From positions 1-64,000 of the forward strand of contig NZ_JAUFQO010000003.1 in assembly GCF_030409835.1 (NCBI RefSeq): a stretch of 64,000 nucleotides of DNA, read 5' to 3'. This stretch comes from Lutimonas halocynthiae. Its GTDB lineage: Bacteria; Bacteroidota; Bacteroidia; Flavobacteriales; Flavobacteriaceae. A program made the translations under genes and the position numbers. The notes beneath the pieces were generated by a model, which searched no databases, was not told where the DNA came from, and saw only the letters and a list, made by a program, of their open reading frames with translations. This document shows positions 37,803 through 52,802 of the stretch, one piece after another. Positions within the stretch are counted from its first letter, which is position 1. Each line of letters starts with the position of its first letter.

Positions 37803-38129
37803 ATGGGGTTAGCAGGAAAACATATGTTTGGATCAATAGGTGAACAGAGAGTCACCTTTGTAGAGAAAAAAATTACTGTTGAGCGGTTGGATTTTCTCAA
37901 AAAACTTTTGGAAGTAAATGGGTTTGAAGTTCTTGTTGATGAGGACAAACGAAAAAGTGAGGAAGACCCTCAATTATATACCATAGGTGTTACTGATATG
38001 GTGTTTAATCCAACAGTATATATTTTCCAACGCAGATTAAAAACACTGGATGGGAAGCATATCGTTAATCAGGAATATTGGAATCAAATATCGGAAGATC
38101 CCAAGCCACAATATTGGAAGAACTCTTAA
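37803..38129 (+). CDS. Small conserved protein at the end of the nuo operon
   Basis: A 108-residue soluble protein without a signal peptide, starting 4 bases after the nuoN stop, so almost certainly co-transcribed with complex I. It has a compact alpha/beta look: VTFVEKKITVERLDFLKKLLE, then FEVLVDEDKRKSEEDP, then TIGVTDMVFNPTVYIFQRRLKT and an aromatic C-terminus. There are no cysteines for a cluster. I do not recognise a characterised family. Position suggests an accessory or assembly role for this complex I; that is inference. It could also be an unrelated passenger gene. Confidence 0.6.
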   Translation: MGLAGKHMFGSIGEQRVTFVEKKITVERLDFLKKLLEVNGFEVLVDEDKRKSEEDPQLYTIGVTDMVFNPTVYIFQRRLKTLDGKHIVNQEYWNQISEDPKPQYWKNS

Positions 38130-38358
38130 GAGAAATAATCAAATACATTTCATTTTTATTATATAGCTATGCCTGAAGTTGTAATTCAGTACTTGTGAAT
38201 TTCACCTTTACCGACATATTGGATAAAATCAGCTATATTTACAGTGCTTATTGAAAAAGAGCGAAATACATTAATTTACTGATTTAGAAAAAGTTATTGT
38301 TTTTTTTGAATGCTCATGCATTTATCTCCGGTTTAATTAATAACCAAAACCAAACCCA

Positions 38359-40545
38359 ATGAAACGCTTTTTACTAGTATTATTACTGGCTGGTCATGTT
38401 GTGACTTTAGCCCAAACCCAACCTGTTGCTCCGGTTAAAATTGTTACCGACGAATACTTCGGACAAAAAATTGATGATCCTTATAGAAATTTAGAAGATT
38501 TAAAGAATCCTGATGTAGATCAATGGTATAAAGGCCAAGGTGATTATACAAGAGGGGTGTTAGATAAAATTAACGGGCGAGATCAATTAGTGGCCAAGTT
38601 TAAGGAATTTGATAAAAGACAGTCATATTCGGTTTACAATTTAAGGATCACAGAAAACGATCTATATTTTTACCTTAAGGAAACTCCAGATGATGAAACC
38701 GGCAAACTATACTATAGAAATGGTTTCAAAGGAGAGGAAAAGTTGCTTTTTGATCCTGAAAAATTCAGAGTAGAGGAGAAAGTTCACTATACGATTTCTT
38801 CGATTTCTCCAAACAATGATGGTAGTAAAATCGGGATAAGTGTTTCTGCCAACGGAGCTGAAAATGCAACCATTATGGTCATGGACGTCAGCAAAGAAAC
38901 AATGCTTAAGGACCAATTATATCCTTGCTGGACCTCTTTTATGAATTGGCTGCCTGATGGGAACTCGTTTTTCTATGGCAAGTATAATTCTGATGATGTT
39001 CATGTAAAAGAAGCGACTCATGATACGCAAACATATCTTCACAAAGTTGGCGACGCACAAAGTGCTGATAAAGAAATGCTTTCAAGAAGGATGAATCCTG
39101 AATTAAAAATCTTACCAGAAGAATATCCTGTCATGGTTTATGATAAAGACAGTGATTTATTGTATGCTTTTATTTCTACTGTTGAAAATAATATGAAAGT
39201 ATTTTATGCTAGTTTCAATGAATTGGAAAAGAAAAAAGTGACCTGGAAAAAATTGATTTCAAGAAAAGATAAGATTGAAGATTTTTATTCAGATTCGAAA
39301 AGCTTTTATTTTAGGTCAACCATGGATGCACCAAATTACAAAATCCTAAAAACATCGATAGAAAAACCAGATTTGAAAAATGCTGAAGTTTTAGTAGCTG
39401 AGAAGAGTGATGAAGTATTAAGAGATTTTGTCATCACAAGTGATGGTTATTATTATACAACCATGAAAAATGGCGTTGAGGGAAAAGTCTATACGGCAGA
39501 TACAGATGGAAAGAATTTTGAAGAGATACCATTGCCCTATGCGGCGGGAAGAGTTAGTATTAGTAATAAAGATATGAATCACAATGATGTTTGGATCAGT
39601 ATGTCAGGCTGGACCCAAGATAATCATCGATTTAAATACTCAAAAAGTAAAGGCACATTTAATGATGAGACACTATCATTTAATGCTAAATATCCTGAAT
39701 TTGAAGATTTGGTTGTTGAAGAAATTATGATTCCTTCACATGATGGGGTTATGGTGCCAGTATCTATAGTTTATAAGAAGTCTTTGGTGAGAAACGGTGA
39801 TAATTCTTTAATGCTCTATGGTTATGGGTCTTATGGAAATGAAATTAGACCTTTCTTTTGGCCGGTCTTTCTATCCTGGGTAGATGAGGGCGGCATTTTT
39901 GTAGTGTCACACGTACGTGGAGGTGGAGAGCTCGGAGATCAATGGCATAAGGCTGGATTCAAAAGTACCAAGCCAAATACTTGGAAAGACTTCATTGCAA
40001 CAGCAGAGTATTTGCACGAAAACAAATACAGTTCACCCGAAAAGACAGCAATATTTGGAGGTAGTGCTGGCGGTATATTAGTTGGTAGAGCCATGACAGA
40101 TAGGCCCGATTTGTTTGCAGTGGCTATTCCTTCTGTTGGATGTATGAATCCTGTTAGAATGGAGAATTCGCCTAATGGCCCGGTCAACGCTCCTGAGTTT
40201 GGAACAGTAGCGATTGAGGAAGAATTTAAGGCCTTATATGAAATGGATGCCTACTTACACATTCAAGATGGGGTTGAGTATCCCGCAACCATGGCAACTG
40301 CTGGTATGAATGACCCACGTGTAATCGCTTGGCAGCCTGGTAAATTTGCAGCAAGATTACAAGCAGCCAATGCTTCGGATAATCCGATTCTTTTCAGAGT
40401 AGATTATGAATCTGGTCATGGAATAGGTGATTCAAAATCTAAAACTTTTGAAGAGTTTGCTGACATATTTGGTTTTGCTTTTTGGCAGACAGGTCATCCT
40501 TCTTATCAGTCTATTAGAACTGATGAAGCTCCTCTTGCAAAATAG
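38359..40545 (+). CDS. Secreted prolyl oligopeptidase family (S9) serine peptidase
   Basis: A 728-residue protein with a signal peptide (about 1-19, LAQ before the mature end), so it acts in the periplasm. It has an N-terminal seven-bladed propeller (about 75-440) and a C-terminal alpha/beta hydrolase domain. The catalytic triad is Ser569 in GGSAGG, Asp652 in NDPRV and His687 in ESGHGIG. The start of the chain (PVAPVKIVTDEYFGQKIDDPYRNLED) is typical of the family, which cleaves short peptides after proline. The 229-bp upstream gap is AT-rich with no clear promoter match. A terminator follows. Confidence 0.92.
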   Translation: MKRFLLVLLLAGHVVTLAQTQPVAPVKIVTDEYFGQKIDDPYRNLEDLKNPDVDQWYKGQGDYTRGVLDKINGRDQLVAKFKEFDKRQSYSVYNLRITENDLYFYLKETPDDETGKLYYRNGFKGEEKLLFDPEKFRVEEKVHYTISSISPNNDGSKIGISVSANGAENATIMVMDVSKETMLKDQLYPCWTSFMNWLPDGNSFFYGKYNSDDVHVKEATHDTQTYLHKVGDAQSADKEMLSRRMNPELKILPEEYPVMVYDKDSDLLYAFISTVENNMKVFYASFNELEKKKVTWKKLISRKDKIEDFYSDSKSFYFRSTMDAPNYKILKTSIEKPDLKNAEVLVAEKSDEVLRDFVITSDGYYYTTMKNGVEGKVYTADTDGKNFEEIPLPYAAGRVSISNKDMNHNDVWISMSGWTQDNHRFKYSKSKGTFNDETLSFNAKYPEFEDLVVEEIMIPSHDGVMVPVSIVYKKSLVRNGDNSLMLYGYGSYGNEIRPFFWPVFLSWVDEGGIFVVSHVRGGGELGDQWHKAGFKSTKPNTWKDFIATAEYLHENKYSSPEKTAIFGGSAGGILVGRAMTDRPDLFAVAIPSVGCMNPVRMENSPNGPVNAPEFGTVAIEEEFKALYEMDAYLHIQDGVEYPATMATAGMNDPRVIAWQPGKFAARLQAANASDNPILFRVDYESGHGIGDSKSKTFEEFADIFGFAFWQTGHPSYQSIRTDEAPLAK

Positions 40546-40566
40546 AAGTTCGTCATATAATAAAAG

Positions 40567-40597
40567 AACATATTACCCATTGTAATATGTTTTTTTA
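40567..40597 (+). terminator. Intrinsic terminator after the S9 peptidase
   Basis: A stem of 9 bp (40567-40575 with 40583-40591) and 7-nt loop, followed by T residues, 22 bases past the stop codon. Confidence 0.82.
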
Positions 40598-40756
40598 TGC
40601 GCAATAAACAGGTTTTATTAAATCGAGAATTATTATCTCTAAAAAGAGAACATTCACAAGAATTGTTTTTAATTTTTATGTTGAATTAATATAAGCGTCT
40701 AATTTTTTTCGAATAACATAATTATTTTATATATTAAAAAATTCAAACTCAAAATA

Positions 40757-40783
40757 GTATACCGCTGATTTTAAGCGGTATAC
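40757..40783 (+). promoter_or_regulatory. Stem-loop in the leader of the glucan operon
   Basis: A perfect 10-bp stem (GTATACCGCT at 40757-40766 and its complement at 40774-40783) with a 7-nt loop and a short T-rich tail. It ends 22 bases before the glgA N-terminal ATG. The S9 peptidase already has its own terminator upstream, so this could be an attenuator or a translation-control hairpin for the operon, or a second terminator. No consensus promoter is visible in the 160 bases before it. Confidence 0.55.
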
Positions 40784-40805
40784 ATTTTTATTGTATCTAA
40801 TTATC

Positions 40806-41609
40806 ATGGAGATATTGAATGTCAGTGCGGAGTGTTTTCCGGTTGCAAAAGTAGGAGGGCTAGCAGATGTTGTTGGTGCCTTGCCTAAATACCAGAAAAA
40901 ACTTGGTGTTGAATCAAAGGTTATCATGCCTTTTTATGATAATGACTTTAAAAAAAACAACAAGTTTAAAGTTGTCAATACAGGTAATTTAAAGCTGGGT
41001 AAGCTTAGGTATGAATATGAAATTCTAAGACCAATCATACCCTTAGACTTTACAATACTTCTTGTTGATATACCAGGCTTGTTTGATCGTTCTGATGTCT
41101 ATTCTTACGAAGATGATGTGGAGCGATTTTTGGCTTTTCAATTGGCCGTGCTCGATTGGTTAAACAGGAAAACTAATAAACCATCGGTTATTCATTGTCA
41201 TGATCATCAGGCAGGATTCATACCTTTTTTAATGTCACACGGGCTTAAGTATAGCAGTTTGAAAGAAATACCAACTGTTTTTACAATTCACAATGCACAA
41301 TATCAAGGCCAGTTCGGATACGATAAACTCAAATATTTTCCTGAATTTGATTTAAAGAAAATGGGCCTCATTGATTGGGATGGTTCTATTAACCCTTTGG
41401 CAACTGCAATTAAAAGCTCATGGAGAGTAACGACTGTGTCGCCCGGCTATCTGGAAGAATTAAAAGCGAACGCAAATGGATTGGAAGAGTTGATCAATCA
41501 GGAGAGTGAAAAATTTTCGGGGATCTTAAACGGTATTGATACAAATGTTTGGAATCCGGAAACGGATGAACACTTAGTTAAAAATTATTCAAATAAAAGC
41601 ATCAAATAA
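40806..41609 (+). CDS. glgA: Glycogen synthase GT5, N-terminal domain as separate gene
   Basis: A 267-residue protein equal to the N-terminal Rossmann domain of GT5 glycogen synthase. It has the ADP-glucose-binding KVGGLADVVGALP (Lys15), HDHQAGFIP, VFTIHNAQYQGQF, the TTVSPGYLEEL motif and the linker GILNGIDTNVWNPETDEHL. It stops right after the inter-domain linker (NKSIK). The C-terminal domain is encoded separately at 42812. The stop touches the ATG of the GT4 gene. I chose the ATG at 40806 because MEILNVSAECFP is the family start; the frame is open from a TTG at 40791. With the other half it would make a 484-residue enzyme of normal size; alone it lacks the catalytic Glu. Confidence 0.9.
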   Translation: MEILNVSAECFPVAKVGGLADVVGALPKYQKKLGVESKVIMPFYDNDFKKNNKFKVVNTGNLKLGKLRYEYEILRPIIPLDFTILLVDIPGLFDRSDVYSYEDDVERFLAFQLAVLDWLNRKTNKPSVIHCHDHQAGFIPFLMSHGLKYSSLKEIPTVFTIHNAQYQGQFGYDKLKYFPEFDLKKMGLIDWDGSINPLATAIKSSWRVTTVSPGYLEELKANANGLEELINQESEKFSGILNGIDTNVWNPETDEHLVKNYSNKSIK

Positions 41610-42812
41610 ATGAAAGCATTATTTTACACAAGAGAGTTTCCACCCTATGTATACGGAGGAGCCGGAGTGCATGTTGAATATTTAGCAGGAGAACTATCTA
41701 AATTAATGGAAATTGATGTCAGATGCTTTGGAGATCAGGACGATAAGGATGGAAATTTATCTGTTAAAGGGTTTCCGTTTGATAATGTTGATTTTGATAA
41801 TTCGAATGACAAACTTAAGGCGGTTTTTAAAACCTTGAGTACCTGTATACATATGAATGCTGACGAAGTGGATGCTGATATTGTGCATTGCCATACTTGG
41901 TACGCGCAATTTGCTGGTATTGTAGCCAAACTTTGTTATGGAATTCCATTAGTGATTACAACCCACTCATTGGAGCCTTTAAGGCCTTGGAAAAGAGAGC
42001 AACTTGGAAGAGGTTATGATGCCTCTTCTTGGGTTGAAAAAACAGCTATTGAAATGGCAGATGCCATTATTGCGGTTTCTGAGGAAACAAAAGTAGACGT
42101 GCTGAATAATTTCAATGTAGATCCTGAAAAGGTTAAGGTAATTTATAATGGAATTAACCTAACGGAATATGTGGTTACAGATAAAGTTTCGACCTTAGAA
42201 AAGTACGGTATTGATCAATCTAAACCTTTTGTATTATTTGTAGGCAGAATTACGAGGCAAAAAGGAATTATACATCTGGTCAATGCAGTTAAATATATAG
42301 ATCCCGATACGCAGATTGTGCTTTGTGCCGGTGCACCGGATACACCCGAAATCGCAAAAGAGATGGAGGATAGCGTTGCTGAGGTTAAGAAAGACAGAGA
42401 TAATGTGATTTGGATCGATGTGATGTTAGAAAAAGAAGAGGTAATTCAGTTGTATTCTCACGCAGATGTATTTTGCTGCCCTTCTATTTATGAGCCTTTT
42501 GGTATAATTAATATTGAAGCTATGGCATGTGAAACGGCTGTTGTTGCCAGTGCCGTTGGCGGAATAAAAGAAGTTGTGGTTCATGGTGAAACGGGCTTGT
42601 TGGTTCAGTTAGAGCAACAAGAAGAAGCACCTTTTGAACCAAAAGACCCTGATAAATTTTCACGAGACCTTGCCGAAGGAGTAAACCAATTGATTAACGA
42701 TAAGGAGCTCACTAGAAAGATGGCTAAGAATGGAAGAAGAAGGGTGGAAGACACCTTTGATTGGATCGCAATAGCTAAGCAAGTAGAAGATTTATATAAA
42801 TCGCTGATTTAA
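41610..42812 (+). CDS. glgM: GT4 glycosyltransferase, GlgM-type (actinobacterial-type GlgA)
   Basis: A complete 400-residue GT-B enzyme of family GT4. The N-terminal REFPPYVYGGAGVHVEYLAGEL and LVITTHSLEPLRPWKREQLG, and the C-terminal VGRITRQKGI and PSIYEPFGIINIEAMACE with the E-x7-E pair Glu295/Glu303, match the enzymes called GlgA in actinobacteria and renamed GlgM. GlgM joins ADP-glucose and glucose-1-phosphate to make maltose-1-phosphate, the substrate of GlgE encoded downstream. It lies exactly between the two halves of a GT5 glycogen synthase, touching the first (0-bp gap) and overlapping the second (TAATG). The GlgM call is strengthened by the glgE neighbour; plain glycogen synthase activity is the alternative. 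Confidence 0.85.
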   Translation: MKALFYTREFPPYVYGGAGVHVEYLAGELSKLMEIDVRCFGDQDDKDGNLSVKGFPFDNVDFDNSNDKLKAVFKTLSTCIHMNADEVDADIVHCHTWYAQFAGIVAKLCYGIPLVITTHSLEPLRPWKREQLGRGYDASSWVEKTAIEMADAIIAVSEETKVDVLNNFNVDPEKVKVIYNGINLTEYVVTDKVSTLEKYGIDQSKPFVLFVGRITRQKGIIHLVNAVKYIDPDTQIVLCAGAPDTPEIAKEMEDSVAEVKKDRDNVIWIDVMLEKEEVIQLYSHADVFCCPSIYEPFGIINIEAMACETAVVASAVGGIKEVVVHGETGLLVQLEQQEEAPFEPKDPDKFSRDLAEGVNQLINDKELTRKMAKNGRRRVEDTFDWIAIAKQVEDLYKSLI

Positions 42813-43465
42813 TGAAGCAGGAATTATTGGACAAAACCCGTGAAATTACAGATTTCACATCTGGGAAGCAGGCCAATAAGTCAGACCTTTGTAAAAGATT
42901 CGGGCTTGACGAATCCTTGCCATTATTTGTCTTTATCGGAAGGTTGGTTAATGAAAAGGGTGCTGATTTGTTTCCGGCGGTATTGTACAAGTCATTGCTA
43001 AAAAAGGATTGCTCTCTGTTTATTCTAGGAGAAGGAAAGGATTCAATAGAGTCAGAGTTGAAATCATTGCGGTTTCATTTTAATAAAAATTATGCAAGCG
43101 TCATTGGTTTTGATGAGGCCTTAGCTCATAAGCTGTATGCTGCAGCTGATTTTCTTTTGATGCCTTCGAGGGTTGAGCCTTGTGGATTGAATCAAATGTA
43201 TGCTTTGAGATATGGTACCATCCCGATTGTAAGAAGAACGGGAGGCTTAAATGATTCAGTTATCGATATTGGAGACGGTGGATTTGGATTCTGCCATGTG
43301 CAGGCATCTGTAAAAGATGTTTGTGATTCAATGTTGAGAGCCAAGGAATTATATAAAAATAAAAAAGAATTAAAACGAATAATAAAAAAATGCATGAGAA
43401 TTGATCATTCTTGGGATATATCAGCCCAAGAATATTTAACTTTATACAAATCTTTAACCCCATAA
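42812..43465 (+). CDS. glgA: Glycogen synthase GT5, C-terminal domain as separate gene
   Basis: A 217-residue protein equal to the C-terminal Rossmann domain of GT5 glycogen synthase. It has FIGRLVNEKGADL (Arg44, Lys49), the catalytic-loop motif PSRVEPCGLNQMYALRYGTIPIVRRTGGL (written in part; Glu122) and the final DHSWDISAQEYLTLYKSL. About 16 residues of new N-terminal sequence (MKQELLDKTREITDFT) precede the point where homology resumes (SGKQANKSDLCKRFGL). The ATG overlaps the GT4 stop as TAATG. Key residues are kept, so the half is not a decayed pseudogene. It probably pairs with the N-terminal half from 40806. Confidence 0.9.
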   Translation: MKQELLDKTREITDFTSGKQANKSDLCKRFGLDESLPLFVFIGRLVNEKGADLFPAVLYKSLLKKDCSLFILGEGKDSIESELKSLRFHFNKNYASVIGFDEALAHKLYAAADFLLMPSRVEPCGLNQMYALRYGTIPIVRRTGGLNDSVIDIGDGGFGFCHVQASVKDVCDSMLRAKELYKNKKELKRIIKKCMRIDHSWDISAQEYLTLYKSLTP

Positions 43466-43467
43466 AT

Positions 43468-44733
43468 ATGTTCAGTAAAAAAGTATTAGGAATCATACTA
43501 GGAGGAGGACAAGGTTCTCGATTATATCCTTTAACAGAAAGCAGGTCAAAACCCGCAGTGCCAATTGCCGGGAAGTACCGATTGGTGGATATTCCAATCT
43601 CCAATTGTATTAATTCTGAGATAAAGAGAATGTATGTATTGACGCAGTTCAATTCAGCGTCCTTGAATCGACATATAAAAAACACCTATCATTTTAGTTT
43701 CTTTAGCCAGGCCTTTGTAGATGTGCTTGCAGCTGAACAGACTCCTATGAGTGATACCTGGTTTCAAGGTACAGCGGATGCTGTCAGACAGAGTATGCAT
43801 CATTTTCTAAGACATGATTTTGAATATGCCTTGATACTTTCTGGGGATCAACTATATCAAATGGATTATAACCTGATGGTTGAACAACATGTCAAGACTG
43901 GTGCAGAAATTTCAATAGCTACAATTCCGGTAAATGCCAAGGATGCTACTTCATTTGGAATCCTAAAATCAGATGACAAAAATGAAGTGACTTCCTTTAT
44001 AGAAAAGCCAGAGAAAAAACTTTTACCAGACTGGACTTCTGAGGTGAGTGATACGATGAAATCTGAAGGAAGGAATTATCTTGCTTCCATGGGTATTTAC
44101 ATATTTAATAGAGAACTGCTCATTGAATTAATGAAGAACCCTGACACAAATGATTTCGGTAAAGAAATTATTCCTCAGGCATTGAGTAAGCATAAAATCG
44201 CAAGTTATCAATATGAAGGATATTGGACGGATATTGGAAATATTGAATCTTTCTTTGAAGCCAATCTCGGTTTAACAGATGATATTCCATCTTTTGATCT
44301 TTATGACAGGAATAAAAGAATTTATACCAGGGCCAGAATGTTACCAACTTCAAAAATTTCTGGAACTACTTTAAACCGAAGTGTAATCGGAGAGGGTTGT
44401 ATCGTGCATGCTGCGAAAATTGACCGCTCAGTAATTGGAATTCGATCTAGGATAGGAAATGAATCTACGGTAATCAATACCTATATGATGGGGAATGATT
44501 CTTACGAAACCTTAGAAGAAATTGACAAGAACAAGACCAAAATTTTAATGGGTATTGGAGAGCGTTGTTTTATTAAGAATGCGATTATTGATAAGAATTG
44601 CCGAATAGGTGATGATGTAAGAATCAATGGTGGTTCGCATTTGAAAGATAAAGAAACAGATACTTACTGTGTTAGAGAAGGTATTGTTGTGATTAAAAAA
44701 GGAGCTATTATCCCGAAAGGATACGTTATCTAA
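43468..44733 (+). CDS. glgC: Glucose-1-phosphate adenylyltransferase
   Basis: A 421-residue enzyme that makes ADP-glucose from ATP and glucose-1-phosphate. It shows the nucleotidyl motif GGGQGSRLYPLTESRSKPAVPIAGKYR in its first part (split by name here: GGGQGSRL at the N-terminus), then DIPISNCINS, LILSGDQLYQMDY and FIEKP, and a C-terminal left-handed beta helix with the SVIGEGC and RIGDDVRINGG turns. The frame is open upstream, but the ATG at 43468 gives the family N-terminus MFSKKVLGIILGG and lies 2 bases after the previous stop. It supplies both GlgM and the split GlgA. Confidence 0.95.
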   Translation: MFSKKVLGIILGGGQGSRLYPLTESRSKPAVPIAGKYRLVDIPISNCINSEIKRMYVLTQFNSASLNRHIKNTYHFSFFSQAFVDVLAAEQTPMSDTWFQGTADAVRQSMHHFLRHDFEYALILSGDQLYQMDYNLMVEQHVKTGAEISIATIPVNAKDATSFGILKSDDKNEVTSFIEKPEKKLLPDWTSEVSDTMKSEGRNYLASMGIYIFNRELLIELMKNPDTNDFGKEIIPQALSKHKIASYQYEGYWTDIGNIESFFEANLGLTDDIPSFDLYDRNKRIYTRARMLPTSKISGTTLNRSVIGEGCIVHAAKIDRSVIGIRSRIGNESTVINTYMMGNDSYETLEEIDKNKTKILMGIGERCFIKNAIIDKNCRIGDDVRINGGSHLKDKETDTYCVREGIVVIKKGAIIPKGYVI

Positions 44734-44750
44734 GAAAAAATTATAAGCGC

Positions 44751-46688
44751 ATGCAAAAGCAGCAAAGAGTGGTTATTGATCATGTTTCGCCACAGATCAA
44801 TGGAGGAGAGTTGTCTATTAAAAGAGTAGTAGGCCAATTGGTAAATATTTCTGCTGATATATTGGCTGATGGGCATGATCTCTTGGCAGCCTCTATTTTA
44901 TATAAGCATCAAAACGAGAAAAAATGGTCTGAAGTGAGGATGGCTCCCGGTCATAACGATGATTGGTTTGGTGCTATTAAAGTTGAGAAGCAAGGAGTCT
45001 ATAATTATAAGATTGAAGCTTGGGTTGATTATGCTTTGAATTGGCAATATGGAATTGGTCGAAAAATAGCTGACAACCAGCATGTAAATTCTGAATTGGA
45101 AGAAGGAGTCCTTTACCTCAAATCTGTTAGAAAAAAAGCTAATGAAACCGAGAAGTCCTATCTTAAAAAGTTAATAGACCTCTTTGTAAATGAGCATGCT
45201 TATGATGAGGCAGTGCGAGAAGCCGTTGGTGACAAACTAAAACTTATTTTTGAAAAATATCCAGAGAAATTTCTGGCAAATACTTCTGAACAATTTCCTG
45301 TTTATGTTGATAGGAAAAAGGCATTATTTAGCACCTGGTATGAGTTTTTTCCAAGATCGTCTAGTAAAAAAGAAGGCGAGCACGGTACCTTCAAAGAATG
45401 CATTCCTTTATTAGATAGGGTTGCTGAGATGGGATTTGACACTTTGTATTTTCCTCCCGTACACCCAATTGGTGAAGTAAATCGCAAAGGAAAAAATAAT
45501 ACGACCACTGCAGAAGAAGGAGATGTTGGTTCATGTTGGGGTATTGGGTCACGTCAAGGCGGACATAAAGACATTCATCCTGATCTAGGCACCTTAGATG
45601 ATTTTAAAGACTTAATAAAAAAAGCAAAAGAATTTGATATTGAAATAGCGATGGACTATGCCCTTCAGGCAGCTCCTGATCATCCTTGGGTGAAAGACCA
45701 TCCATCATGGTTTAAGTGGAGACCAGACGGGACTGTTCAATACGCTGAAAATCCTCCAAAAAAATACCAGGATATTCTTCCCATTTATTTTGAATCGGAA
45801 GATTTTAAAGGATTATGGAAGGAATGCCTTGATGTGTTGAATTTTTGGATAGATTGTGGTATTAAAATTTTCCGAGTAGATAACCCGCACACAAAGCCTT
45901 TTTATTTTTGGAACTGGATTATCAACGAAGTTAAAAAGAATCACCCTGATATTATTTTTCTGGCGGAAGCCTTTACAAGACCAAAAGTTATGCAGGAATT
46001 GGCCAAACAAGGCTATTCACAATCTTACACTTATTTTACCTGGAGAGATAATAAGCATGAATTGATAAGCTATGTTGAAGAATTGACTAAGACGGAGCAA
46101 TCAGAATATATGCGGCCTAATTTCTGGCCTAACACACCTGATATTAATCCTTTCCATCTGCAAGGTGCCAATGAATCAAAGCATATTCAACGTTATGTGT
46201 TGGCAGCAACTTTAAGTTCGAATATTGGTATTTATGGACCTGTATTTGAACAAATGCTCAGTCAGGCATTACCTGGTAAGGAAGAGTATTTGAATTCAGA
46301 AAAGTTTCAGATCCAACATTATGACTGGACTGCTGAGAATTGGTTAATTAAACTGATTTCAGGAATTAACAAGGCAAGAAAAGAATGCGAAGCTTTGCAA
46401 CAAACCAATAATATTAGGTTTTGTCATATTGATAATGATCAGTTAATAGCTTTTTATAAATGGAATGATGAGAAGACAAGCGAAGTACTGGTAGTAATTA
46501 GCCTTGACCATCATCATGCCCAACGTGGTACGGTACAATTGCCCATTCAGGATTTGGGTATTAGTGGCAATGAGCAATTAAAGATCAGAGATATATTACC
46601 AGATATTGAGTACACTTGGAATGGTGAATGGAATTTTGTAGAATTACATCCTAATATGCCGTTTCATATTTTCGAAATAATTAAATAA
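44751..46688 (+). CDS. glgE: Maltose-1-phosphate maltosyltransferase GlgE
   Basis: A 645-residue GH13 subfamily 3 enzyme that adds maltosyl units from maltose-1-phosphate to alpha-1,4-glucan. An N-terminal immunoglobulin-like domain (about 1-110) and a helical insert precede the barrel. Catalytic residues are the nucleophile Asp377 in FRVDNPHTKP, the acid/base Glu406 in LAEAFTRPKV and Asp464 in NTPDIN. HTKP and the stretch SQSYTYFTWR mark GlgE rather than ordinary amylases. Length is typical. Its neighbours glgM, glgC, maltokinase and glgB complete the pathway. Confidence 0.95.
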   Translation: MQKQQRVVIDHVSPQINGGELSIKRVVGQLVNISADILADGHDLLAASILYKHQNEKKWSEVRMAPGHNDDWFGAIKVEKQGVYNYKIEAWVDYALNWQYGIGRKIADNQHVNSELEEGVLYLKSVRKKANETEKSYLKKLIDLFVNEHAYDEAVREAVGDKLKLIFEKYPEKFLANTSEQFPVYVDRKKALFSTWYEFFPRSSSKKEGEHGTFKECIPLLDRVAEMGFDTLYFPPVHPIGEVNRKGKNNTTTAEEGDVGSCWGIGSRQGGHKDIHPDLGTLDDFKDLIKKAKEFDIEIAMDYALQAAPDHPWVKDHPSWFKWRPDGTVQYAENPPKKYQDILPIYFESEDFKGLWKECLDVLNFWIDCGIKIFRVDNPHTKPFYFWNWIINEVKKNHPDIIFLAEAFTRPKVMQELAKQGYSQSYTYFTWRDNKHELISYVEELTKTEQSEYMRPNFWPNTPDINPFHLQGANESKHIQRYVLAATLSSNIGIYGPVFEQMLSQALPGKEEYLNSEKFQIQHYDWTAENWLIKLISGINKARKECEALQQTNNIRFCHIDNDQLIAFYKWNDEKTSEVLVVISLDHHHAQRGTVQLPIQDLGISGNEQLKIRDILPDIEYTWNGEWNFVELHPNMPFHIFEIIK

Positions 46689-46691
46689 TCT

Positions 46692-48320
46692 ATGCCAGAT
46701 AAGGCCACCAATACGGAATTACAATCCACTTTTGAATTTGAAGGTGTTTGGGAAGAACTGCTCGAAAATAAAGATTTTATTGAGATATTCTTGTCAGAGG
46801 TTCTTGAAGATTATATCATTAAACAGAGATGGTACGGTGGAAAGGCCAGTAAGTTAAAGTATATTGAACTCAGTGAATATTTTAGAATTCAACAACATGG
46901 GGAGGTCTATTTTGGGCTCCTTTTAGAAATAGATTTTTTTGAAGCTTTTTTCCATCATTATTTTTTACCGATTGCTTTTGTTACGGATGTGAATTTCGCA
47001 AAAAGTGATCGTATTTTGCCCATTAAGATTCAAGGACAGCAGGGCTTTATAATTGATGCTATTAATTTAGAAGCTTTTAGAAAACTTGTCTTTGAGAGAA
47101 TATTAGGTGCTGCTCCTTTTGACAGGACAAAGGTGCAATACCACAGGAGTGAATCCTTTAAGGATGTTGTATATGAATCTTCAAGATTCATGGGTTTGGA
47201 GCAAAGCAATACTTCGATCATTTATAATGAAAAGTATGTTTTAAAGTTCTTTAGACGCATTTTTGCTGACAAGAATCCTGATTATGAAATGAGCAGATTT
47301 CTAACTGAGATCAAAGATTTTAAGAACACACCATCTTACCAAGGGAGCTTAAATATCATTGATTCTGAAGAGGTTAATGTCACGATAGCATTGATGCAAA
47401 AACTGGTTCCCAATGAAGGAGATGCCTGGGATTACATGCTCAAAGAATTGAAATGTGTTTTTGAAAATTTAGAGACCAAACATATCAACATTGGAAATTT
47501 GCCAATAGCAGATAGGTTTGAAAGGATGCAAATCAATGAGGTAAAACCTGAAATCATTGATTGGATAGGCCTTAATTTGTTACTTAAGATACAACAGCTC
47601 GCTGTAAGAACAGCTGAAATGCACGTTGTGTTGGGCTCGGAATTTGAGGATACAGCTTTTACACCAAATCACTTTAACGGAGATTATGAGGTGTGGTTAA
47701 AGAACAGGCTTTTATATCAATTTCAGAACAGACTCAATATTGTTGAGAATGGAATGCATAAGCTTGAAGGCATGGCGCTTGACCTTGCAAAGGAATTTTT
47801 AGAGAAAAAGACGCTGATAAGAAAACGGATCACTAATTTTGATTGGACAGCTTTGAAAGGTGAACGAATCAGGGTGCATGGTGATTACCATCTTGGACAG
47901 ATTCTTGTAACCAATAATGACTTCTATATCCTGGATTTTGAAGGAGAACCTGAAAGTACTATTCGTGATAGAAAAGTAAAACAGCCTCCATTAAAAGATG
48001 TAGCAGGCTTGTTTAGGTCTTTTCATTATGCGATATATGCGACAATCTTTAATAACCCGGATTCATTTAAACGGCCCCAGGAGGAGCTTTTTGAAGCGGC
48101 AGAGATACTATACAGTTATTTTACAAGTGTGTTTTTGGGCACTTATACAGATGAAATACAAAATGCCAATTTGAATATTGGCTATAACCAGGAGCGAATA
48201 TTTATTCTTAAATATTGTCTGCTTGAAAAAGCAGTTTATGAAATAGGATATGAATTTAATTCACGTCCTCAATGGGCTTTGATTCCTTTAAAAGGAATTT
48301 CTAATATTATAAATCATTAA
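46692..48320 (+). CDS. mak: Maltokinase (Mak/Pep2 type)
   Basis: A 542-residue kinase-like protein. The N-terminal cap motif KQRWYGGKASKLKYIEL and the kinase core, with HGDYHLGQILV (His396, catalytic Asp398) and DFEGEPESTIRDRK (Asp415), match maltokinases of the Mak/Pep2 family, which phosphorylate maltose to maltose-1-phosphate with ATP. It is longer than the stand-alone actinobacterial enzyme (about 450 residues) and closer to the form fused to trehalose synthase, but no TreS domain is present. It is 3 bases after glgE and 4 before glgB. It offers a second route into maltose-1-phosphate. Confidence 0.88.
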   Translation: MPDKATNTELQSTFEFEGVWEELLENKDFIEIFLSEVLEDYIIKQRWYGGKASKLKYIELSEYFRIQQHGEVYFGLLLEIDFFEAFFHHYFLPIAFVTDVNFAKSDRILPIKIQGQQGFIIDAINLEAFRKLVFERILGAAPFDRTKVQYHRSESFKDVVYESSRFMGLEQSNTSIIYNEKYVLKFFRRIFADKNPDYEMSRFLTEIKDFKNTPSYQGSLNIIDSEEVNVTIALMQKLVPNEGDAWDYMLKELKCVFENLETKHINIGNLPIADRFERMQINEVKPEIIDWIGLNLLLKIQQLAVRTAEMHVVLGSEFEDTAFTPNHFNGDYEVWLKNRLLYQFQNRLNIVENGMHKLEGMALDLAKEFLEKKTLIRKRITNFDWTALKGERIRVHGDYHLGQILVTNNDFYILDFEGEPESTIRDRKVKQPPLKDVAGLFRSFHYAIYATIFNNPDSFKRPQEELFEAAEILYSYFTSVFLGTYTDEIQNANLNIGYNQERIFILKYCLLEKAVYEIGYEFNSRPQWALIPLKGISNIINH

Positions 48321-48324
48321 TGAC

Positions 48325-50235
48325 ATGGCAGAAGTAATCAATTATAGTCTTTTTACTGAATTTGATGTAGATCTATTCAAATCAGGAAAGCATTACCGAC
48401 TTTATGAAAAGTTCGGATCTCACCCAATGACTCTTGATGGAGTTGAAGGGACTTACTTTGCGGTATGGGCGCCATCTGCAAAATCAGTATCGGTCATTGG
48501 AGATTTTAATTTTTGGAACGAAAAACAACATCGATTAAAAGTAAGATGGGACGCCTCAGGTATTTGGGAAGGGTTTATTCCTGATGCCAAAGAGGGTATG
48601 AGGTATAAATACAAGATTAAGTCAAATCATAATGACATCGTTACAGAAAAGTCTGATCCTTATGCTTTTGCCTACGAAAAGCCGCCAAATACAGCTTCTA
48701 TTATTTCAAGTGTCGATGGCTATGATTGGAAGGATAAAGCTTGGATGGGCTATAGAAAAGATAAAAATGGTTTGGATAAACCTTATGCGGTATATGAGGC
48801 ACATTTGGGTTCTTGGATGCGAAATGCCGATGACAATAGTTTTTTAAGTTACGAGCAATTAGCTGATAAATTAGTGACTTATTTGAAGCAGATGAATTTT
48901 ACACATGTAGAGTTTATGCCGATAATGGAGTATCCTTATGATCCTTCATGGGGTTACCAGCTTATAGGGTACTTTGCCCCAACTTCAAGATTTGGTACTG
49001 CCCAGGGTTTTATGCATTTATGTGATAAATTACATCAAAATGATATTGGAATCATCCTTGATTGGGTGCCTTCTCATTTCCCTTCAGATGATCATGGTCT
49101 AGGCTTTTTTGATGGTACTCATTTATATGAACACCCTGACCCGCGAAGAGGGTACCACCAAGACTGGAAGAGTTTGATTTTTAATTATGGTAGAAATGAA
49201 GTGAAATCATTTTTAATAAGTAATGCATTTTACTGGTTTGACAAATACCATATTGATGGATTGCGAGTTGATGCTGTTGCATCAATGCTTTATCTTGATT
49301 ATTCACGTGAAGATGGTGAATGGGAACCAAATATCTATGGAGAAAGAGAGAACCTCGAAGCCATTGATTTCTTGAAAGACTTTAACCGTGAGGTATATGC
49401 AAATTTCGATGGAATTCAGACTATTGCTGAAGAATCAACTGCTTTTACCGGAGTGACCAATGATGTCGCTTTTGGAGGTTTAGGTTTTGGTATGAAATGG
49501 ATGATGGGATGGATGCATGACACATTAGAATATTTTTCAAAAGATCCTGTTTACAGGAAGCATCATCAAAATGAAATAACCTTTAGTTTGGCTTACGCCT
49601 TTTCAGAAAAATTTATGTTACCCTTATCCCACGATGAAGTGGTATATGGCAAGCAATCACTTTTAGGTAAGATGCCGGGTGACGAATGGCAGCGATTTGC
49701 AAATTTAAGGTTACTTTATGCTTATATGTATACGCATCCAGGAACCAAATTGATGTTCCAGGGAGGTGAATTTGGACAGTCTGAAGAATGGAATTTCTCA
49801 CAGAGCCTAGATTGGCACTTATTGGAATTTAAACCACATAAAGGCTTGCAGACCTTTGTTAAGGATCTTAATTCATTTTACAAAACAACTCCTGCTTTAT
49901 ATGAAAAAGCTTTTAGTGGAGAAGGATTTGAATGGATTAATTATGGAGATCATGAAAACTCCGTAATCTCATATATCCGTAAAGGACATGATGAAAAGGA
50001 CGATGTTATAGTGCTATGTAATTTCAATCCAGTGGTTCGAAAGAATTATGAAATTGGCTTACCTCGCAAAGGGAAATTAAAACAGGTTATGAATAGCGAT
50101 TTTAAAAAGTATTTTGGCAGCGGTATCAGCAATTCAAAAGAAATTGCTATTAAAAAAGAAAGCAGAGATGGCAGGCCTTTTTCTGCATCGATTACCTTGC
50201 CTCCTTTAAGTCTGGTCGCCTTTAAGATAATATAG
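48325..50235 (+). CDS. glgB: 1,4-alpha-glucan branching enzyme
   Basis: A 636-residue GH13 enzyme that introduces alpha-1,6 branches. It has an N-terminal CBM48 (about 30-115; FAVWAPSAKSVSVIGDFNFW) and the catalytic barrel with the nucleophile Asp316 (GLRVDAVASMLYLDY), acid/base Glu369 (IAEESTAF) and transition-state Asp437 (LSHDEVVYGK). A C-terminal beta domain closes the chain. This is the shorter form without the extra N-terminal N1 domain. It is the last gene before a strong terminator. Confidence 0.96.
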   Translation: MAEVINYSLFTEFDVDLFKSGKHYRLYEKFGSHPMTLDGVEGTYFAVWAPSAKSVSVIGDFNFWNEKQHRLKVRWDASGIWEGFIPDAKEGMRYKYKIKSNHNDIVTEKSDPYAFAYEKPPNTASIISSVDGYDWKDKAWMGYRKDKNGLDKPYAVYEAHLGSWMRNADDNSFLSYEQLADKLVTYLKQMNFTHVEFMPIMEYPYDPSWGYQLIGYFAPTSRFGTAQGFMHLCDKLHQNDIGIILDWVPSHFPSDDHGLGFFDGTHLYEHPDPRRGYHQDWKSLIFNYGRNEVKSFLISNAFYWFDKYHIDGLRVDAVASMLYLDYSREDGEWEPNIYGERENLEAIDFLKDFNREVYANFDGIQTIAEESTAFTGVTNDVAFGGLGFGMKWMMGWMHDTLEYFSKDPVYRKHHQNEITFSLAYAFSEKFMLPLSHDEVVYGKQSLLGKMPGDEWQRFANLRLLYAYMYTHPGTKLMFQGGEFGQSEEWNFSQSLDWHLLEFKPHKGLQTFVKDLNSFYKTTPALYEKAFSGEGFEWINYGDHENSVISYIRKGHDEKDDVIVLCNFNPVVRKNYEIGLPRKGKLKQVMNSDFKKYFGSGISNSKEIAIKKESRDGRPFSASITLPPLSLVAFKII

Positions 50236-50258
50236 TATAGAAATTAGGTTTTAAAGAG

Positions 50259-50308
50259 AAATACCCCGTTATTTTTTTATTCTTCATAAAAATGACGGGG
50301 TATTTTTA
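50259..50308 (+). terminator. Intrinsic terminator after glgB
   Basis: An 11-bp stem (AAATACCCCGT at 50259-50269 with 50295-50305) with an inner AT-rich extension and T residues after it. It ends the split-glgA to glgB transcript. Confidence 0.88.
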
Positions 50309-50319
50309 GGATATCCACA

Positions 50320-50350
50320 TTGATTGAATTAGCGAATTTCATTAGGTTTG
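50320..50350 (+). promoter_or_regulatory. Candidate promoter of the GH31 gene
   Basis: TAGGTTTG at 50343-50350 matches the -7 consensus. TTG triplets at 50320-50322 (20-base spacing) and 50324-50326 (16-base spacing) could serve as -33. It lies between the glgB terminator and the GH31 ATG. Confidence 0.5.
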
Positions 50351-50396
50351 TAGGCTGTGAAATATGCTGCTCCTCAGGGAGATAAAATGATGATTT

Positions 50397-52802
50397 ATGA
50401 TTTTAAATACGGAGTTAGAAAACAAAGGGAATTTATTCCCATCTAAAATAATTTCTTACCGAAAAGACGTTGATACCTTTTATTTTACAACCGAAAACTT
50501 TGTAGTATTACAGGTGACGGTTCGCAGAGATAGCGTACTAAGATTCAGGTATAGTACAAAAACGATATTCGACAATGATTTTTCATATGCTATTACCAAA
50601 TATGCAAGTGAGGGCTATAACCATTTAGATCTAACCGAAGATAAAACGCATTATATTATTACAACTTCTAAATTGATCTGTAAGATCGCAAAAGAAGACA
50701 TGCGTAAGTCAATATTTGATGCGAAAGACGGGAAACTTATTTGCGAGGATGAGATTGGATTTCACTGGGAAGAGAGTTATGAGTTTGGAGGAGATATTGT
50801 TAAGATGTCTAAAGTTTCACAGGATAGTGAAGCCTATTATGGACTAGGTGATAAGCCAGTTGATATCAATTTAAAAGGGAAGCGATTTGAGAATTGGGTA
50901 ACTGATTCTTATGCCTATGGCAGGGATACAGATCCTATTTATAAATCTATACCTTTTTATATCGGTTTGCATCACACCAAGGCATATGGAATATTTTTTG
51001 ACAACACCTTTAGATCTTTTTTTGATTTTTGTGCTGAACGTAGAAATATTACCAGTTACTGGGCTCAGGGCGGAGAAATGAACTATTATTTCATTTACGG
51101 ACCAGATATGACAGATGTTGTGGCGTCTTATACAGATCTAACCGGGAAGCCGCACGAAATGCCTCCTTTATGGGCTTTGGGATACCATCAATGTAAATGG
51201 AGTTATTATCCGGAAGCAAATGTTAAGGCTGTTACCAAAAAGTTTAGAGACCTAAAGATACCATGTGATGCCATTTATTTGGACATTGATTATATGGATG
51301 GTTTTAGATGTTTTACATGGAACAAGGAGCATTTTCCTGATCCAAAAGGAATGGTCAAGGAATTAGAAGATGATGGATTTAAAACCATTGCGATTATAGA
51401 TCCAGGGATCAAAATCGATATGGATTATAATATATTCAGAGAGGCCCTTGAAAAGGATTATTTCTGTAAACGAGCAGATGGCCCTTATATGAAAGGTAAA
51501 GTTTGGCCCGGAGAATGTTTCTTTCCTGATTTTACTGATCCAAAAGTTCGTGAATGGTGGTCTGGCTTATATAAAGAATTAATTGAAGAAATAGGCGTTA
51601 AGGGAGTCTGGAACGACATGAACGAACCTGCTGTAATGGACGTTCCTGGAAAGACATTTCCTAACGATGTAAGACATAATTATGACGGGAACCGTTGTAG
51701 TCATAGGAAGGCGCATAATGTATATGGAATGCAAATGGCCAGAGCAACCTATCAAGGGTTAAAGAAGTTCTCATATCCCAAACGACCTTTTGTAATTACT
51801 AGAGCGGCTTATGCAGGAACTCAACGTTATACATCAACATGGACGGGTGACAATGTTGCCACCTGGGATCATTTAAACATAGCGAATATACAAGCACAAC
51901 GATTAAGTATGTCAGGATTCTCTTTTGTAGGATCAGACATCGGAGGATTTGCTGAACAGCCTAATGGAGAACTCTATGCACGTTGGATACAACTAGGGAT
52001 GTTTCATCCTTTCTTTAGAACACATTCATCCGGAGATCACGGAGATCAGGAGCCTTGGGCATTTGGATCAAACATAACCGATATCGTTAGAAAATTTATT
52101 GAGATCAGGTATGAATTATTACCTTATATGTATACTGCTTTTTGGAGGTATGCAGAGGAAGGAATTCCGATTTTAAAATCCTTAGTATTGTTTGATCAGG
52201 AAGATCCGCATACGCATTATAGAAATGATGAATTTATCTGTGGAGAAAAAATTCTTGCTTGCCCAATTGCTGAACCAAATGCTAAAGGAAGAAGAATGTT
52301 TATCCCTAATGGAGAATGGTATAATTTCTGGGATAATGAAGTAGTGCAAGGAGGAGAAGAAGTGTGGGTGGATGCTGATCTTGATTTCATGCCAATTTTT
52401 ATAAAAGCTGGGTCGATTATTCCAAAATACCCTGTGCAACAGTATGTTGGTGAGAAGACGATTGATCAGTTAATTCTCGATGTTTATTTCAAAGAAGGAA
52501 AAGAAAAATCTCAGGTGTATGAAGACGCACATGATGGTTATGATTATAAAAAAGGAAGGTTTAGTTTAAGGGATTTTAAATTGATTGGAAAGAAAAAGTC
52601 ATTGGTTATCCAGCAGTTTAAATCAGGAAAGTATATGACTCCTTATGAGACTTTTCAAATCAATTTGAAAGGACTACCTTTTAAAATAGCGAAAATTGAA
52701 ATTGATAATGAAGAATTAGATCTTAAAAAATTAAAGATCAATGGTGAGAATTCATTTGTAGTGACCAAAGATTTTAACAGACTATATATAACAGCCAAGT
52801 AA
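50397..52802 (+). CDS. Alpha-glucosidase, glycoside hydrolase family 31
   Basis: An 801-residue GH31 enzyme with an N-terminal beta-sandwich (about 20-240), catalytic barrel (about 255-600) and C-terminal beta domains. The nucleophile is Asp407 in VWNDMNEPA and the acid/base Asp485 in WTGDNVATW. There is no signal peptide, so it is cytoplasmic and likely trims intracellular alpha-glucans or malto-oligosaccharides, which fits the neighbouring synthesis operon. Alternatives within GH31 (for example sulfoquinovosidase or xylosidase) are less likely from the ALGYHQCKWSYYPE and DIDYMDGFRCFTW motifs of true alpha-glucosidases. Confidence 0.92.
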   Translation: MILNTELENKGNLFPSKIISYRKDVDTFYFTTENFVVLQVTVRRDSVLRFRYSTKTIFDNDFSYAITKYASEGYNHLDLTEDKTHYIITTSKLICKIAKEDMRKSIFDAKDGKLICEDEIGFHWEESYEFGGDIVKMSKVSQDSEAYYGLGDKPVDINLKGKRFENWVTDSYAYGRDTDPIYKSIPFYIGLHHTKAYGIFFDNTFRSFFDFCAERRNITSYWAQGGEMNYYFIYGPDMTDVVASYTDLTGKPHEMPPLWALGYHQCKWSYYPEANVKAVTKKFRDLKIPCDAIYLDIDYMDGFRCFTWNKEHFPDPKGMVKELEDDGFKTIAIIDPGIKIDMDYNIFREALEKDYFCKRADGPYMKGKVWPGECFFPDFTDPKVREWWSGLYKELIEEIGVKGVWNDMNEPAVMDVPGKTFPNDVRHNYDGNRCSHRKAHNVYGMQMARATYQGLKKFSYPKRPFVITRAAYAGTQRYTSTWTGDNVATWDHLNIANIQAQRLSMSGFSFVGSDIGGFAEQPNGELYARWIQLGMFHPFFRTHSSGDHGDQEPWAFGSNITDIVRKFIEIRYELLPYMYTAFWRYAEEGIPILKSLVLFDQEDPHTHYRNDEFICGEKILACPIAEPNAKGRRMFIPNGEWYNFWDNEVVQGGEEVWVDADLDFMPIFIKAGSIIPKYPVQQYVGEKTIDQLILDVYFKEGKEKSQVYEDAHDGYDYKKGRFSLRDFKLIGKKKSLVIQQFKSGKYMTPYETFQINLKGLPFKIAKIEIDNEELDLKKLKINGENSFVVTKDFNRLYITAK

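Follow-up and report, generated by a model that had tools for sequence, protein, structure and literature searches.

Can a glycogen synthase whose gene is interrupted by a complete gene for another glycosyltransferase still work as an enzyme? The question is raised by an operon in a 64,000-nucleotide stretch of Lutimonas halocynthiae DNA (assembly GCF_030409835.1, contig NZ_JAUFQO010000003.1, positions 1 to 64,000 of the forward strand; hereafter "the window"). Here a glycosyltransferase family 5 (GT5) glycogen synthase, GlgA, is encoded as two halves, glgA-N and glgA-C, on either side of an intact family 4 (GT4) gene of the GlgM type. The original prediction had described this layout from the letters alone, and its coordinates, lengths and junctions (TAA followed by ATG; TAATG) proved correct when we re-read the window. 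Our analysis indicates that glgA-N and glgA-C very probably make up one GT5 glycogen synthase that works as two chains. The features concerned are the following:

40806..41609, + strand: glgA-N, 267 residues, the N-terminal Rossmann domain of a GT5 glycogen synthase, with K15, H162, V211 and N242; stop codon TAA at 41607-41609.
41607..41612, + strand: junction 1, the TAA of glgA-N and then the ATG of glgM, with 0 bases between.
41610..42812, + strand: glgM, a complete GT4 gene of 400 residues, alpha-maltose-1-phosphate synthase type (TIGR02149, 550 bits; 6tvp, E 5e-107).
42810..42814, + strand: junction 2, TAATG, in which the stop codon of glgM overlaps the start codon of glgA-C.
42812..43465, + strand: glgA-C, 217 residues, the C-terminal Rossmann domain (nucleotide-sugar side) of the same GT5, with R44, K49, E122, G125 and L126 and a C-terminal helix at 201-215.

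Profile matches bear out the description of a GT5 synthase coded in two halves around a GlgM-type gene. The glgA-N protein covers positions 1-271 of the 477 in TIGR02095 (243.7 bits; 208 bits against PF08323) and glgA-C covers positions 272-477 (216.5 bits). These spans are complementary and both halves together therefore make one enzyme of normal extent, as had been proposed. Neither single chain reaches the curated TIGR02095 cut-off of 328.45 bits that marks a one-chain GlgA. The glgM product scores 550.4 bits against TIGR02149, above the cut-off of 302.4 bits for GlgM, and its best solved relative is the alpha-maltose-1-phosphate synthase of Mycobacterium smegmatis (6tvp, E 5e-107).

Alignment with unsplit relatives places the break in the inter-domain linker, between the two Rossmann domains of the GT-B fold, where the original prediction had put it. 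The N half ends at KNYS plus a few variable residues, the C half resumes at about GK..NK..LC, and no conserved residue is missing at the split point. On several unsplit relatives the BLAST alignments of the halves share about 15 residues, which prompted us to consider a linker duplication kept in both halves; we rejected this because residues 1-16 of the C half lack conservation from one species to the next (0.23 identity). K15 of the N half, named as a key residue in the original prediction and counted here among the ADP-glucose residues, is conserved. R44, K49 and E122 of the C half, also reported earlier as kept, align with R300, K305 and E377 of Escherichia coli GlgA, and we located further ADP-glucose residues in the N half (H162, V211 and N242) and in the C half (G125 and L126). 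In E. coli GlgA the ADP-glucose residues are H161, V211, N246, R300, K305, E377, G380 and L381, as given in the consulted section of PMC7137382. As the corresponding residues are divided between the two chains, a full donor site would need both.

We surveyed 22 genomes of the genus, including the window's own (G000), and sorted them into five sets. The full order of N half, GlgM and C half occurs in six (G000, G008, G011, G012, G013 and G017); a seventh split genome, G015, shows GlgM and the C half, and its contig ends within glgM so that the N half is not readable. Five genomes carry an unsplit glgA with no glgM found (G007, G009, G010, G019 and G004, the last with the N part and a portion of the C part in one frame up to the contig end), five carry glgM-glgC with no glgA found (G002, G003, G016, G020 and G021), and one, G005, has both an unsplit glgA and a glgM, on separate contigs. 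In the remaining four drafts, of 61-90% completeness, neither glgA nor glgM was found (G001, G006, G014 and G018); in G001, glgE sits at the very start of a contig. Thus both the N-GT4-C order and its one-frame counterparts, which the original prediction had proposed to look for among flavobacterial genomes, were found.

The junctions are tight throughout the split loci. At junction 1 the spacing is 0 bases in G000, -1 in four and -4 in one of the six full loci, and at junction 2 it is -1 in five of seven loci and +11 and +15 in the remaining pair when the earliest possible start codon is used. We considered a read-through fusion of the N half with GlgM and set it aside: the two share a frame in G000 only, and in the five other full loci they overlap by 1 or 4 bases in a different frame. 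Several of the genomes are fragmented drafts, which would be the ground for suspecting an assembly or annotation artefact; seven separate assemblies nevertheless agree, two of them single-contig (G011 and G017), and the same order in separate genomes excludes an assembly error at the junctions, a failure that the original prediction had allowed for. The chance of an artefact is thus negligible.

Both halves appear to be under selection. We defined 81 invariant columns from 91 unsplit GlgA proteins. Invariant residues are retained in the N half at 40 of 40 positions in five of six genomes and at 39 of 40 in G011 (G24V), G015 not counting here for lack of an N half. For the C half the figures are 41 of 41 in G008, 40 of 41 in G012, 41 of 42 in G011, G013, G015 and G017, and 40 of 42 in G000; the single difference in G015 falls in the overlapping linker, as does one of the pair in G000. 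For the three lowest-dS pairs (among G011, G013 and G017), the ratio of non-synonymous to synonymous substitution (dN/dS; Nei-Gojobori, own script) is 0.040-0.048 for the N half, 0.083-0.117 for the C half and 0.011-0.018 for GlgM, at dS values of 0.77-1.21, 0.40-0.56 and 0.99-1.66, respectively. These pairs, chosen for their low dS, are 3 of 15 for the N half and GlgM and 3 of 21 for the C half; other pairs with finite dS give 0.065 (N, one pair), 0.088-0.169 (C, six pairs) and 0.036-0.049 (GlgM, two pairs), and the rest are saturated. Since the C-half ratio lies above that of the N half and well above that of GlgM, yet is low, the C half is, judging from these ratios, constrained, less than the N half and much less than GlgM. 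The ratio of non-synonymous to synonymous differences (pN/pS) allows only a rough comparison because pS is near saturation: it is 0.27-0.47 (N part) and 0.24-0.38 (C part) in unsplit genus relatives, and 0.08-0.23 (N) and 0.11-0.34 (C) over all pairs of split halves.

These figures bear directly on decay, in which insertion of glgM broke glgA and left remnants made redundant by the GlgM-GlgE route. Such an outcome would suit an operon that also holds glgE and glgM, and a genus in which five relatives show glgM-glgC with no glgA found. There is also a precedent in Estrella lausannensis, which has GlgE-like genes and whose GlgA ends early at a stop codon and was without detectable activity (PMC7935935, in the part consulted). 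That part of the paper describes the inactive truncated GlgA of this chlamydial relative and a GlgA-GlgB fusion, and no two-chain enzyme. The rearranged or broken glgA of Waddliaceae and Criblamydiaceae thus resembles the present case in occurring in GlgE-route organisms, but the truncated GlgA there is inactive and lacks a second half, whereas here both halves are present and constrained. Against decay stand full open frames and low dN/dS in both halves, the retention of invariant residues (40 of 40, or 39 of 40 in G011, in the N half; 40-41 of 41-42 in the C half), and the finding that no genus genome searched has a lone half, apart from G015 with its contig end within glgM. Comparing synonymous and non-synonymous change in each half had been suggested as a check, and intact glgA relatives had been linked in advance to the case of decaying halves; such relatives exist, and the halves show no decay in either dN/dS or invariant residues. 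We consider decay highly improbable.

If the split gene were dispensable, another synthase might be expected to stand in for it, and the original prediction had named a second intact GT5 gene in the genome as a threat to its reading. No second full-length GT5 was found in the window's own genome, where GT5-domain matches are the N half, glgM itself and one N-only gene, and a search of the 22 genus genomes for a GT3 glycogen synthase came up empty. The N-only gene (G000:C1:124488-125180, L002) has a frame of 269 residues and lies divergently beside panC; similar N-only frames of 269-287 residues occur in six genus relatives. Like glgA-N it holds a GT5 N domain with no C domain in the chain; unlike glgA-N it lies at another locus and is distant in sequence, with 22-24% identity to the N half (six relatives). 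It fits a remark, in the consulted part of a review, that Bacteroidetes keep a GlgA-GT5 fragment (PMC11046441).

This stand-alone GT5 N domain in the same genome gives some footing to the idea that the halves took on separate new roles, the N chain acting alone like the panC-linked gene and the C chain serving as an ADP-glucose binder or regulator. The fragment said to be kept in Bacteroidetes (PMC11046441, part consulted) and the C domain of Pyrococcus abyssi GlgA, solved on its own (2bfw), could be read the same way. However, the joint active-site residues are conserved in both halves, the pattern of conservation along the halves matches that of unsplit relatives, and the panC-linked kind is distant from the N half; we therefore find separate roles quite unlikely. 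By inference from constraint, recurrence and the failure to find a backup synthase, the earlier preference for a two-chain synthase over decay is supported.

Structure prediction agrees with this division. Modelled alone with AlphaFold2, the C half has a predicted local distance difference test score (pLDDT) of 86.9 and the N half one of 85.9. In Foldseek searches the best matches of the C half are GlgA and starch synthases; it matches E. coli GlgA (2qzs) with a template-modelling score on the query (TMq) of 0.89 and the isolated P. abyssi C domain (2bfw) with a score on the target (TMt) of 0.80. The best matches of the N half are starch and glycogen synthases (TMq 0.77-0.80), with root-mean-square deviations of 6-8 Å for GlgA. 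From about residue 241 the tail of the lone N model is poorly ordered, with pLDDT values of 50, 49 and 40 in the block of residues 239-262.

This tail is nonetheless as conserved across split species as the core of the N half (0.785 vs 0.765), and in the C half the C-terminal helix exceeds the core in conservation (0.81 vs 0.72). The comparison used four of six N rows and five of seven C rows, near-identical species being left out, and five unsplit rows; structure alignments covered 36 of 80 C and 35 of 79 N relatives. The same trend appears in unsplit relatives from the genus (tail 0.67 vs core 0.64; helix 0.75 vs 0.72), and therefore the split has apparently not relaxed these parts. The two freed ends, in contrast, have drifted, with values of 0.36 and 0.23 in split against 0.48 and 0.52 in unsplit proteins. 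A conserved tail and helix would be expected if both parts still linked two partner domains.

A known two-chain GT-B enzyme offers a comparison. Alg13/Alg14 (EpsF/EpsE), related to MurG, is likewise divided between its two domains, and what keeps its chains together is the C-terminal helix of Alg13 along with the final three residues of Alg14 (PMC8993221, in the part consulted). It differs in belonging to another GT-B family, with UDP-GlcNAc and a lipid-linked acceptor, and no transferase gene between its halves is reported in that part of PMC8993221. By analogy only, the present pair has the marks of a two-chain GT-B enzyme: a division between the two Rossmann domains and a C-terminal helix on the C chain.

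How would the two chains work? Sequence, gene order, recurrence, conservation, single origin and the predicted fold of each half form the directly computed part of the case, and we infer from it assembly, activity, coupled translation and an insertion event. Each chain would fold as one Rossmann domain of the GT-B fold, and coupled translation of one operon would yield the pair next to each other before they join non-covalently. The ADP-glucose site would be completed by K15, H162, V211 and N242 of the N chain together with R44, K49, E122, G125 and L126 of the C chain. A likely clasp, as in Alg13/Alg14, would consist of the N-chain tail and the C-terminal helix on the C chain. The split itself may have occurred when a complete glgM landed in the part of glgA that encodes the inter-domain linker, within an operon combining the GlgA and GlgM-GlgE routes.

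A larger assembly had also been suggested, in which both halves and GlgM form one three-part complex channelling ADP-glucose to both routes. Its appeal lies in the position of glgM, which stands between the halves in all six full split loci with junctions of -4 to +15 bases. Tight packing is however also seen among the other genes of the window operon, separated by gaps of 2-17 bases. A new large interface on GlgM might leave an own clade or a long stem; neither is seen, the GlgM proteins of split operons grouping in 34% of bootstrap trees with no well-supported clade of their own, and we count this against the complex. An obligate two-chain GT5 whose halves also bind GlgM, one assembly feeding ADP-glucose into the GlgA and GlgM-GlgE routes, is accordingly unlikely, and this part of the original prediction found no support.

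Several points weigh against a working two-chain GlgA. The conservation of tail and helix comes from four N rows and five C rows. There are small losses (Y100F in five of seven C halves, G24V in the G011 N half), and the C half changes more quickly than the N half, with dN/dS of 0.083-0.169 (9 of 21 C pairs, those with finite dS) vs 0.040-0.065 (4 of 15 N pairs). GlgE provides a second route to glucan, and loss of GlgA activity might therefore be tolerated. Finally, the assemblies of G008, G012, G015 and G017 are 72-95% complete, and the operon of G017 stops inside glgE.

When did the division arise? In the gene tree the split GlgA proteins form one clade (support 100/100, seven rows), and the five split hosts with readable Nuo genes form one clade in a 13-row NuoLMN tree (100/100). 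These trees indicate a single origin of the split, in the common ancestor of one clade inside a Flavobacteriaceae genus. In a family sample of 397 genomes, 77 have an N-domain match at E<=1e-45; the 74 outside the genus are all unsplit, in frames of 466-543 residues, and the three from the genus have frames of 283-284 residues. Among the best 80 of 578 named loci of other Bacteroidota, 79 are unsplit (467-568 residues) and the remaining one, of 398 residues, ends at its contig end; no glgM relative at E<=1e-60 was found in the stretches of these best 80. A phylum-wide search for other split GlgA (395 genomes, 347 with a match) covered its best matches, and further cases may exist; a recheck of 16 hand-chosen genomes among its low-scoring ones gave no adjacent N and C pair. 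Side observations from the phylum-wide work include C-side GlgA frames of 360-362 residues in G776 and G791 and a GlgA in two pieces, each on its own contig, in G818; in G611 and G664 the matches lie within very long open frames, which we took as masked sequence. G813 (another family) has a 262-residue frame matching only the C side of GlgA (G813:C166:37645-38394, positions 227-474) and also a full-length match.

Within the genus, three operon types share one chromosomal site, flanked where readable by nuoL-M-N plus a gene of 108 residues on one side and a glycoside hydrolase family 31 (GH31) gene on the other (window 37803-52802, L054-L056, L059-L061, L086-L090). These are the unsplit glgA-glgC-glgB operon; glgM-glgC-glgE-glgB, with a kinase-like gene in some; and the split composite. 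As exceptions, the upstream neighbour differs in G007 and the flanks differ in G017. The split operon combines two kinds found at this same site in sister species, the glgA type and the glgM-glgE type. For GlgC, the split rows cluster with G020, a genome of the glgM-glgE type (97), and away from the sequences of unsplit operons; the tree is a quick one in which outgroup rows mix with genus rows. Trees of GlgB, GlgM and GlgE give no clear placement of the split clade; in the set of trees that includes GlgC, matches below 35% identity or with fewer than 101 aligned residues were dropped. The composite operon may thus have formed at this site, complete glgM coming to lie in the glgA linker. Its remaining genes in the window are the following:

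43468..44733, + strand: glgC, ADP-glucose pyrophosphorylase, same operon (PF00483, PF25247).
44751..46688, + strand: glgE, maltose-1-phosphate maltosyltransferase (PF11896, PF21702).
46692..48320, + strand: maltokinase-like gene between glgE and glgB, with no Pfam match at E<=1e-8; presumably of the Mak/Pep2 type, a label we give from its position.
48325..50235, + strand: glgB, branching enzyme (PF02922, PF00128, PF02806).

Three further observations concern this site. A prolyl oligopeptidase gene (38359-40545) lies between the 108-residue gene and the window operon and is not at that place in G008, G011 or G013. G005 (L087 and L063), a 67% complete draft, has a glgM-type operon in the nuo slot and an unsplit glgA-glgC-glgB on another contig, either a real double set or mixed strains. 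In G017, a 72% complete single-contig genome (L053 10248-12358), 434 of 645 glgE residues are matched before unrelated genes follow, by real truncation or a scaffolding fault.

Is such an enzyme already known? Like the original prediction, which knew of no described example, we found no two-chain GT5 in literature searches that left most subscription-journal papers out of reach, and no paper on gene fission of a glycogen synthase by title. The words "split" and "fission" do not appear in the consulted part of the review PMC11046441. Bacterial GlgA enzymes (E. coli 2qzs, Agrobacterium tumefaciens 1rzu) share both domains, the ADP-glucose residues and the glgC/glgB operon context with the present pair, but are single chains, whereas here the two chains have genes that are separated by a third. 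GlgM (GT4) of M. smegmatis (6tvp) is of the same type as this middle gene. Mycobacterium tuberculosis lacks GlgA, and GlgM supplies its GlgE route (PMC7137382, consulted section); here, in contrast, GlgM coexists with GlgA.

What would a two-chain synthase mean? The GlgA enzymes with solved structures are single chains. If the reading is true, a natural and long-kept division at the domain boundary shows that the GlgA domains can work as separate chains, and it provides a ready-made pair for studying how GT-B enzymes open, close and bind their acceptor. The locus also looks like a case of gene fission in which one glycosyltransferase gene was inserted into another, with unsplit, glgM-glgE and composite operons all at the same chromosomal site within one genus.

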